From contig NZ_CP083646.1 of NCBI RefSeq assembly GCF_020099275.1, positions 1,364,001 to 1,428,000 on the forward strand: a stretch of 64,000 nt of DNA. The letters are read 5' to 3'. Source of the stretch: Corynebacterium falsenii. Lineage in GTDB: Bacteria > Actinomycetota > Actinomycetes > Mycobacteriales > Mycobacteriaceae. Within the stretch, counting starts at the first letter, position 1. Each line of letters begins with the position of its first letter. The translations under genes were made by a program, and so were the position numbers. The notes beneath the pieces are model-generated. The model saw only the letters and a list, made by a program, of their open reading frames with translations. It made no database searches and was not told the origin of the DNA. Below, one piece after another: positions 46,263 through 48,366 of this stretch.

Positions 46263-46448
46263 TGTGTCTGTAGGGCTTTTCTTGGCTCTGCTGGAACCTG
46301 CATGAGCGTCGGCGTAGGCATAATAGATCACCTTTTGCCCCACTTTCCCCCACAAGGAAGTCTGGATGCATTAGTGCTGGTAGCTGGGCTAAGAGAACAA
46401 GAAAATTGGCGAAAATATTCCCAACTTTGCCGTGTGTGGTGGTGTTCG

Positions 46449-46483
46449 TGGGGGAGAGTGGGGTAAAGTGGGGCGTGCTGGAG
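46449..46483 (+). promoter_or_regulatory. MraZ-box-like array of TGGGG repeats
   Basis: TGGGG occurs at 46449, 46459 and 46469, exactly 10 bp apart, followed by TGGAG at 46479. MraZ in E. coli binds TGGGN repeats with 5-bp spacers upstream of its own gene. The same geometry here, 120-155 bp upstream of mraZ, suggests autoregulation of the dcw cluster. Confidence 0.75.
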
Positions 46484-46602
46484 GGGTAGAGCGCCTGCAG
46501 CGACGACAAACTTCATAGGGAATGCGGCATAAGCAGCGAAGATGCCGCGCGCTAGATAGGTCTCACTAGGCAAGGCACCACACACGAGGAAAGGGGCCGA
46601 AC

Positions 46603-47034
46603 ATGTTCTTCGGCACCTTCACTCCGAAGCTGGACGACAAGGGTCGCTTGACCCTGCCCGCCAAGTTCCGGGACGACCTGGCCGATGGCCTCATGGTCGT
46701 GAAGGGACAAGACCACAGCTTGGCTGTCTATCCCCGGGATGAATTCCTCGTCCGGGCGCGTAAGGCAACGGCCACCTCTCGGTCGAACCCCAAGGCGCGT
46801 GCGTTTCTGCGCAACCTCGCTGCCAGTGCCGATGAGCAGGAGCTCGACTCGCAAGGTCGCGTGTCCCTGTCCGCCAACCACCGCACCTACGCGGGGTTGA
46901 ACAAGGAATGCGTGGTCATCGGCAACGTGGACTTCATTGAGATCTGGGATGCCCAGGCCTGGGAGGCTTACAGCGCCAAGCACGAGGAAGACTTCTCGGA
47001 GGCCGACGACGAAGCCTTCGCAGAGTTCCTCTAG
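46603..47034 (+). CDS. mraZ: Transcriptional regulator MraZ
   Basis: MraZ is an AbrB-like DNA-binding protein that forms rings and controls the division and cell-wall cluster. The 143-residue protein carries two SpoVT/AbrB-type repeats: [23 protein letters not shown] and, in the second half, [18 protein letters not shown]. Each has the DxxGR motif that contacts TGGGN sites. The acidic C-terminus ([15 protein letters not shown]) is typical of Corynebacterium. AAAGGGGC serves as ribosome-binding site. It is the first gene of the dcw cluster, and a 288-bp structured gap separates it from rsmH. Confidence 0.95.
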
Positions 47035-47096
47035 CAGCTCCGCTGCTCGACTCCAACGGCTCGGCCCTAACGAAAGAGAACAACTTAATAGAGATC

Positions 47097-47202
47097 AGAG
47101 AGTGTGCGCAGGCCCTTACCTGCGTGGACGACGTGGTGACTTGATGTACTTCCCCAATATCAAGCCCGCACCCACGCAGGTGAGGCCCTGTCCGCACTCT
47201 CT
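47097..47202 (+). ncRNA. Long RNA hairpin in the rsmH leader (candidate mraW-motif RNA)
   Basis: Positions 47097-47127 and 47172-47202 are reverse complements at 26 of 31 positions. Two of the five deviations are G-U pairs on the plus-strand RNA, so 28 of 31 can pair. Inside, CTTGAT (47140-47145) and ATCAAG (47159-47164) form a second stem. The structure lies between mraZ and rsmH (mraW). A conserved 'mraW' RNA motif is known from actinobacterial leaders of mraW operons. I could not test whether this one fits its consensus. Confidence 0.6.
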
Positions 47203-47322
47203 TTGCTTTTCTCCACAGCGCAAGGGGCCAAGCGCCCCATGGTGGCGTCGAGAAAAGAAAGACCGCAAAAGAGAACAACAGTGCGCAGGCACTCACGACA
47301 CCATCCGAGAAAGGAGGCACAC

Positions 47323-48366
47323 ATGGAACAGCAGAAGGAGCAGCACAAGGAGCACGGACACACTCCCGTCATGCGCGACCGCATGGTCGAGTTGATTGGG
47401 CGTGGCATGAACGGTGCTGCGCCCGTCATCGTTGATGGCACACTCGGCGCAGGCGGTCACAGTGAAGCGTTCCTGGAGGCCTTCCCGGATGCGATCGTCG
47501 TGGGTCTGGACCGCGACCCCAACGCACTGGCTGAAGCGCAGGAGCGCCTGGCCCGATTCGGCGATCGATTCTGCAGCTACCGCACTCGCTTCGATGGCAT
47601 TACCGACGCGCTCGAGGATCTCATCGCCAACGGCGACGTACCCGAGAGCGTGCGGGAGACCGGGATTTCGGGCTTCCTCTTCGACCTGGGTGTCTCCTCC
47701 ATGCAGCTGGATCAGCCCGAGCGTGGGTTTGCCTACAGCGTCGATGCGTCGCTCGACATGCGAATGGATCCCAGCACGTCGCTGACCGCAGCAGAAATTC
47801 TCAACACGTACAGCCACGGCGATATCGCCCGGGTACTCAAGACCTACGGTGATGAGCGCTTCGCGGGCAAGATCGCCTCGGCCGTAGTACGTGAGCGGGA
47901 GAAAGAGCCGTTCACCACGTCCGCCCGGCTCGTGGAGCTGCTGTACGCCACCATCCCGGCGGCCGCCCGGCGCACCGGCGGTCACCCCGCCAAGCGCACC
48001 TTCCAGGCCCTGCGCGTGGAGGTGAACGCTGAGCTGGAGAGCCTTTCGCAGCTCATCCCCGAGGCGACCCGCTGGCTCGGGATCGGGGGAGTGGGAGTGT
48101 TCATGTCCTACCAGTCCCTCGAAGACAAGATCGTCAAGCAAGCGCTCACGAAGCTGTGCACGTCGAGCACCCCGCCCGGGCTGCCCATGGACCTGCCGGG
48201 CACCGAAGCGGAGTTCGAGATGATCACCCGCGGCAGCGAAAAAGCCACGCCGGAGGAGATCGAATCCAATCCGCGGGCCGCACCAGTCCGCGTGCGGGCA
48301 GCCCAACGAGTAAGCGCACGAGAGCAAACCACATTCCCACTACACCGTTCAAAGGATCGAGCATGA
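47323..48366 (+). CDS. rsmH: 16S rRNA (cytosine1402-N4)-methyltransferase
   Basis: RsmH (MraW) methylates C1402 in the ribosomal decoding site. The 347-residue protein starts at ATG 47323 behind AAAGGAGGCAC. Motifs: [13 protein letters not shown], the SAM site [15 protein letters not shown] and [31 protein letters not shown], and the C-terminal [25 protein letters not shown] with the catalytic Ser/Tyr region. The first ten residues are a Gln/Lys/Glu tail. An open frame extends 40 codons upstream but without homology. Its stop overlaps the ftsL start (ATGA). Confidence 0.95.

Follow-up and report, generated by a model that had tools for sequence, protein, structure and literature searches.

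The mraZ-rsmH gap and its RNA element

In the window, that is, the whole 64-kb stretch of DNA analyzed here, mraZ ends at 47034 and is followed on the same strand by an ORF (47203-48366) that we take to be rsmH (mraW). The most likely start codon of rsmH, picked by Shine-Dalgarno and alignment, is the ATG at 47323, which leaves a gap of 288 nt between the two genes. The features of the locus are as follows.

46603-47034, plus strand: mraZ (143 aa), the 5' neighbor of the element; ORF, with PF02381 (MraZ) matching here in the same genome
47093-47212, plus strand: mraW RNA, Rfam RF01746 (model positions 1-107); 50.3 bits, gathering cut-off 50, E 2.8e-9 in a 1.5-kb search
47097-47127, plus strand: outer stem, 5' arm; inverted-repeat search, RNA fold and compensatory changes in relatives
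47140-47147, plus strand: apical stem, 5' arm CUUGAUGU; RNA fold and apical-stem alignment
47149-47155, plus strand: apical-loop heptamer CUUCCCC, within the 9-nt loop 47148-47156; gap counts across loci
47157-47164, plus strand: apical stem, 3' arm AUAUCAAG; RNA fold and apical-stem alignment
47172-47202, plus strand: outer stem, 3' arm; inverted-repeat search, RNA fold and compensatory changes
47310-47317, plus strand: Shine-Dalgarno sequence of rsmH, AAAGGAGG; sequence and start-site choice
47323-48366, plus strand: rsmH (mraW), 16S rRNA methyltransferase, the first gene 3' of the element; ORF 47203-48366

The inverted repeat described in the earlier note (47097-47202) is real, with 31-nt arms that are 84% complementary and 44 nt between them, and it is the only one of at least 12 nt reported in 46900-47500. 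Rather than filling the mraZ-rsmH gap, as had been stated, it occupies 106 of the 288 nt. The guess that it represents the mraW motif was correct: cmscan places RF01746, of the Rfam type Cis-reg, at 47093-47212 on the plus strand, by a narrow margin over the gathering score, and this is the only gathering-level Rfam match in the window. Given the model score, the position directly 5' of rsmH (47093-47212 compared to 47323) and the compensatory changes described below, membership in the mraW family is confirmed, a separate RNA class is excluded, and the identity of the element is practically certain. The element shares with RF01746 the sequence and structure model, the ACUUCCCC loop, the long hairpin with a covarying stem and the location upstream of rsmH; unlike the model, the window copy is divergent, just above the threshold. 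Thus, this is a further member of a known family, and the wider points made below (the near-universal loop, tandem copies and MraZ independence) concern the family, not the window alone.

Several additional features surround the element. Three GTGGGG repeats with an exact 10-bp spacing, which we take to resemble MraZ boxes, lie 5' of mraZ (46448-46473), and a search limited to promoters of the sigma-70-like type found none in 46300-47500. A short hairpin without a U-tract, GGGGC-CAAGC-GCCCC, is located between the mraW RNA and rsmH (47224-47238). The sequence at 47073-47084 is copied at 47268-47279 (AAAGAGAACAAC), 3' of the mraW RNA, and that at 47104-47113 is copied at 47281-47290 (GTGCGCAGGC), where the later copy might act as a competitor of the 5' arm. 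The direct repeat that flanks the element (12 nt shared in the window) was considered as the basis of a switch and rejected: over 141 loci, the longest shared flanking stretch averages 6.41 nt, compared to 6.29 in shuffles, so that the direct repeat looks peculiar to the genome of the window.

Hairpin structure, covariation and strand

The plus-strand RNA of 47093-47212 folds with a predicted energy of -66.0 kcal/mol (z -8.91) and the opposite strand with -60.9 kcal/mol (z -6.60); in each case, none of 200 dinucleotide shuffles was as good. Of the five deviations between the arms, two had been described as G-U pairs of the plus strand; such pairs are indeed present, at three positions rather than two (arm positions 9, 12 and 21), and the remaining deviations are C.C at positions 11 and 17. 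Likewise, the inner stem that had been noted exists, with 8 bp (CUUGAUGU/AUAUCAAG) instead of six, and closes the 9-nt loop ACUUCCCCA.

Covariation in related species, which remained to be sought when the repeat was first described, is readily apparent: in the genus alignment (A1; 69 of 71 sequences kept after dropping identical ones), RNAalifold detects compensatory changes at 21 of the 31 pairs. The apical stem was analyzed in two sets of 36 and 75 distinct windows (A2 and A3), all cut around CTTCCCC, so that the constancy of the loop in these sets is by construction. In the first set (28 sequences of the genus and 8 of the same family), 97.9% of the apical-stem cells are paired; in the second, which consists of 75 further order and class sequences and has the pairing register shifted by one, 85.3% are paired and all 8 pairs show double changes. 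Tallied by sequence and not as independent events, double changes number 27 in the first set, compared to 8.2 in shuffles, and 79 cells in the second, compared to 16.0. Pair types in the apical stem among the 36 sequences are no more numerous than in shuffles (9 compared to 9.1).

The plus-strand bias, from which the earlier note argued for selection on the RNA, holds in the genus of the window, where 64 of 74 loci fold better on the plus strand, but is absent outside it: the plus-strand fold is the better one in 13 of 29 Mycobacterium-like loci, 24 of 41 in the rest of the order and 30 of 84 in the class, as well as in 325 of 684 control windows. This strand argument is therefore valid only locally. 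By a rough pattern, one pair of opposed outer-stem letters is A.C in 58 of 71 genus loci (L001-L101); its most common form is C.A for the order and T.A for the class. For the Mycobacterium-like loci the pattern gave mostly C.T, probably a misreading.

A nearly invariant loop across the class

The genus of the window is apparently Corynebacterium, and the genera denoted g2 and g93 are apparently Mycobacterium and Streptomyces, respectively; for g2, a pattern derived from its loci hit 15 stretches in records named as Mycobacterium. At E 0.001, the genomes with an RF01746 match number 197 of 201 in the genus, 224 of 298 in the order and 131 of 197 in the class, of which 171, 145 and 54, respectively, score over the cut-off. 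By genus, the matches cover 68 of 76 in the order and 73 of 91 in the class. The searches were run with stricter filters, in which weak matches are lost. C. glutamicum, included as a named control, matches as well. For the four genus genomes without a match, the rsmH locus was obtained in three, and in all three the heptamer is present in the gap, flanked by matching arms, and the outer stem differs; the fourth genome is 53% complete and yielded no rsmH.

Of 234 loci, 228 had a readable mraZ-rsmH gap. CTTCCCC is present in the gap of all 201 loci chosen by the Rfam match (71 of 71 in the genus, 29 of 29 Mycobacterium-like, 41 of 41 in the order and 60 of 60 in the class), a count that is circular as evidence for the heptamer. 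Of the readable gaps without an Rfam match, 26 of 27 contain the heptamer, including 3 of 3 in the genus. In the order and class, it is found in 23 of 24 such gaps, compared to 1.0 expected from composition; these loci come from 31 picked genomes (13 of the 74 unmatched in the order and 18 of the 66 in the class), 29 of which yielded rsmH. The sole unmatched gap without the heptamer (L255) retains mraZ and rsmH, is 32 nt long and has no element. Because the CUUCCCC loop is kept in nearly all of the relatives covered here, a very conserved reader is probable. Pairing of the loop with rRNA was tried and rejected: the 16S, 23S and 5S rRNAs of E. coli lack GGGGAAG; one GGGGAGG is present in 16S and one GGGAAG in 23S rRNA. 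The presence of the heptamer in unmatched gaps is new for the mraW family, as are the following points described below: the tandem hairpins, the MraZ-independent retention of the element, its loop loss in the Streptomyces-like genus, and the lack of a constant spacing from rsmH or a conserved terminator.

Linkage to rsmH with and without MraZ

The mraZ gene lies upstream in 228 of 234 loci, and the MraZ family (PF02381) matches 174 of 197 class genomes. Within family f33, 15 genomes of the Streptomyces-like genus g93 were searched; 14 of them have no MraZ, and the other has a weak match whose frame looks unrelated. MraZ is also absent from the followed genomes of six more genera of this family. 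These six genera keep the heptamer beside rsmH in 12 of 12 loci (13 MraZ-less f33 genomes were entered, one of them without rsmH, and the apex of L315 was judged by position only), as do the MraZ-positive loci of the family (17 of 17, from 17 genomes). Thus, the element can persist with rsmH in the absence of MraZ.

In g93, mraZ is near rsmH in none of the 31 loci read, three of which were covered by the whole-genome MraZ search. CUUCCCC is kept at the apex in 10 of these loci and absent from it in 21; among the latter, one has the heptamer at a second site only and 20 have none within the searched span of 330 nt from the aligned rsmH start (L290 is perhaps mis-windowed). The heptamer is therefore dispensable in this genus. 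In L253, L263, L266 and L275-L302, all Streptomyces-like, the element is visibly decaying, from altered loops to the loss of most of the hairpin. Furthermore, one genome from another family (G262) has neither MraZ nor the heptamer within 450 nt of rsmH. The rule that these cases suggest, namely, that the loop is lost wherever MraZ is lost, fails in the six MraZ-less genera.

Tandem hairpins and copy number

Under a strict score that requires an uninterrupted stem, 174 of 227 gaps contain one apical hairpin, 6 contain two in tandem (L241, L246, L257, L258, L259 and L269) and one (L260) contains three; the remaining 46 show none, partly because their stems are short, interrupted or mismatched. 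Further copies are visible on looser stems in L245, L248 and L272. A model of the apical hairpin, too weak for judgement outside the genus, was run on 31 genomes. It finds one strong site in the genome of the window (E 7e-6) and one in 16 of 18 genus relatives (E 1.2e-6 or better), and no second site below E 0.02 in any of these 19 genomes among the 150 candidates scored per genome, a number that weak sites may escape. Weak best matches that are not tied to the mraW site were obtained in G010 (E 8e-4) and G016 (E 0.14), and weak second matches in G010, G011 and G013.

Some mraW lineages resemble, in their likely working, multi-hairpin protein operators such as the CsrA/RsmA sites, in which one short loop motif is carried on several hairpins. 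The motif of the latter is GGA, unlike the CUUCCCC of mraW, which does not belong to this group.

Published transcripts

The open-license literature on the mraW motif, in the excerpts consulted here, consists of surveys and transcriptome papers in which we found no function or functional test, and a 2017 paper terms the function unknown (PMC5640933). According to these excerpts, the C. glutamicum motif spans 2,267,021-2,266,916 and the 5' end of rsmH maps to 2,266,932, that is, nucleotide 90 of 106 (PMC3890552), which by the model geometry would fall in the 3' arm; the C. glutamicum motif has also been assigned to a leader transcript (PMC4046766), and the C. diphtheriae motif is located 5' of the mapped start (PMC5784534). 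The published 5' ends are termed transcription starts, so that an internal promoter may apply. In M. tuberculosis, sRNA candidate 1359 originates in the rsmH leader and was seen on Northern blots as bands of 60 and 30 nt (PMC3526491); this RNA presumably overlaps the M. tuberculosis hairpin. For M. tuberculosis and BCG, mraW is also named among the small RNAs that have been annotated (PMC8600241), whereas RNA-seq of C. pseudotuberculosis gave 1 and 0 mraW reads (PMC3917459), which counts against abundance. The RNase III cut of C. glutamicum mraZ (cited in PMC8247434, in excerpt) is, by the title of the cited work, in the coding region, not in the mraW stem.

A possible parallel, by description rather than by sequence, is UpsM of R. 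sphaeroides, an organism that we take to belong to another bacterial phylum. The excerpted description of UpsM is that of a small RNA from the 5' leader of the dcw cluster (PMC5089854).

Competing explanations

One candidate partner of the loop is the rsmH Shine-Dalgarno sequence, with which the loop could form a kissing interaction and thereby repress rsmH translation. This is a serious rival inside the genus, even if unlikely on the whole. GGGGG is present in 51 of 74 rsmH sites of the genus and, in a 20-kb subset (with one of 20 rsmH sites, L142, missing and L144 and L154 visibly mis-assigned), at 12 of 19 rsmH sites compared to 5 of 177 sites of nine other dcw genes (Fisher p 5e-11, ignoring kinship among the genomes); the start codons were picked by anti-Shine-Dalgarno energy, which favors G-rich sites equally in all genes. 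Near-perfect complements (score of at least 16) are found at rsmH in 18% of 71 genus loci and 34% of 29 Mycobacterium-like loci, compared to 1% of 178 and 2% of 63 matching controls, respectively. However, only 5% of the 19 rsmH sites in the 20-kb subset reach a score of 16; at a score of 14, controls with a strong Shine-Dalgarno reach 24% in the genus (n=46) and 80% in the Mycobacterium-like set (n=10); there is no rsmH enrichment elsewhere (7% of 40 order and 9% of 89 class loci, compared to 9% of 79 controls); and the rsmH site of the window itself, AAAGGAGG, is an ordinary one that forms 5 pairs with the loop, one of them G-U. A constant loop facing a changing partner is contrary to the prediction from base pairing. 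Because the complementarity varies by clade and the loop does not, Shine-Dalgarno pairing is kept as a rival that has its best case within the genus. GGGTCGAG directly precedes the rsmH ATG in several loci of the order and class (L104, L113, L133, L212, L218, L233 and L256). Analogous pairing with the mraZ Shine-Dalgarno, or binding of the MraZ protein, as an obligate partnership would account for the almost constant upstream mraZ, for the loop erosion in g93 and for G262, and complementarity of the mraZ site (score of at least 16) is found at 49% in the order (37 loci) and 37% in the class (70 loci), compared to 9% in controls (79 sites) and 16% in strong control sites (38). The intact loops of the six MraZ-less genera contradict it, and just 3% of the mraZ sites in the 29 Mycobacterium-like loci reach this score, making an obligate partnership very improbable.

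A structured, conserved element in leader position ahead of wall genes also invites interpretation as a metabolite riboswitch for a wall precursor. The columns of a 2010 survey table are read here in the sense that we presume them to have. The mraW entry in that table, 'y y ?' (PMC2864571, in excerpt), is compatible with a riboswitch, but the search over loci for a conserved expression platform, based on distances, terminator-like hairpins and U-tracts, found none: the rsmH start lies anywhere between 59 and 416 nt from the loop; terminator-like hairpins are present in 7 of 74 genus gaps and in 0 of 29, 0 of 41 and 0 of 83 elsewhere; and the stem is followed by 1.92 T in 10 nt on average, compared to 1.75 expected, with at least 6 T in 1 of 66 genus loci (dropping loci with rsmH less than 90 nt away left 66 of 74, 13 of 29, 31 of 41 and 74 of 84). 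The rarity of such hairpins and the lack of U-tract enrichment led us to reject an intrinsic terminator or attenuator. Tandem copies, moreover, carry different stems. The lack of a conserved terminator and of a fixed distance to rsmH, along with the retention of the loop without MraZ, argues against a classical riboswitch, which we consider rather improbable, as well as against an obligate MraZ partner. The terminator-like hairpins (CTGCGTGA...CGCGCAG, then T) lie between the mraW RNA and rsmH in L010, L011, L012, L015, L024, L070 and L082. The rpfB-ksgA-ispE RNA switch of M. tuberculosis is alike in being a leader RNA in a position to regulate wall-related genes jointly with a 16S rRNA methyltransferase; it terminates transcription, and its authors, in the excerpted text, note no widespread conservation (PMC6009663), whereas mraW has no conserved terminator and is present across the class. 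Release of the hairpin as a trans-acting small RNA that targets G-rich ribosome binding sites is consistent with the 60- and 30-nt M. tuberculosis transcripts and with the small-RNA annotations mentioned above, but the element stays in cis to rsmH even where mraZ is gone, and no second strong copy was found in the genome of the window and its 18 genus relatives, so we hold this route to be quite improbable. Finally, a palindrome acting at the DNA level, as a protein operator on double-stranded DNA, would fit the about equal folding of both strands outside the genus; it is barely credible given the compensatory changes, which include G-U forms and surround a constant, unpaired loop (at one apical pair, G-C 39 and G-U 30, a count that leans toward G-U because the structure was predicted with G-U allowed) and the transcripts reported for the mraW region in the excerpts of PMC3890552 and PMC5784534.

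A putative docking site in the rsmH leader

The explanation that we tentatively prefer, at somewhat less than even confidence, is a cis-acting leader with a loop that docks a putative trans factor and a stem that is processed. It builds on the identity and structure of the element, the near-invariance of the loop, the linkage to rsmH and the tandem copies in some lineages; co-transcription, processing and the docking factor would be added to these observations. Under this scenario, the element would be a cis element heading rsmH and the wall-synthesis genes, in which a rigid stem displays the single-stranded heptamer CUUCCCC, where a trans-acting factor, most likely an RNA-binding protein, would presumably dock. 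An activity of the RNase III type would probably cut the long double-stranded stem, splitting the mraZ mRNA from the rsmH mRNA and freeing a stable hairpin, which, with cuts in both arms, would be about 60-70 nt long. The published 5' ends and Northern bands described above would fit such a cut. Binding to the loop may then alter the survival or translation of the rsmH-operon mRNA. The leading candidate for the docking factor would be RsmH itself, in an autoregulatory role, followed by a KH-domain protein. A bolder version, which appears unlikely though far from negligible, is that of a nearly class-universal CUUCCCC-loop operator, in one to three copies, through which RsmH or a dedicated RNA-binding protein would control its own mRNA, coupling ribosome maturation to peptidoglycan synthesis.

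The present analysis narrows the mraW problem to the questions of what reads CUUCCCC and whether this reader is RsmH. If a trans factor reads the loop, corynebacteria, mycobacteria and their relatives would share an RNA control point of the wall and division operon, possibly one that is tied to ribosome maturation.
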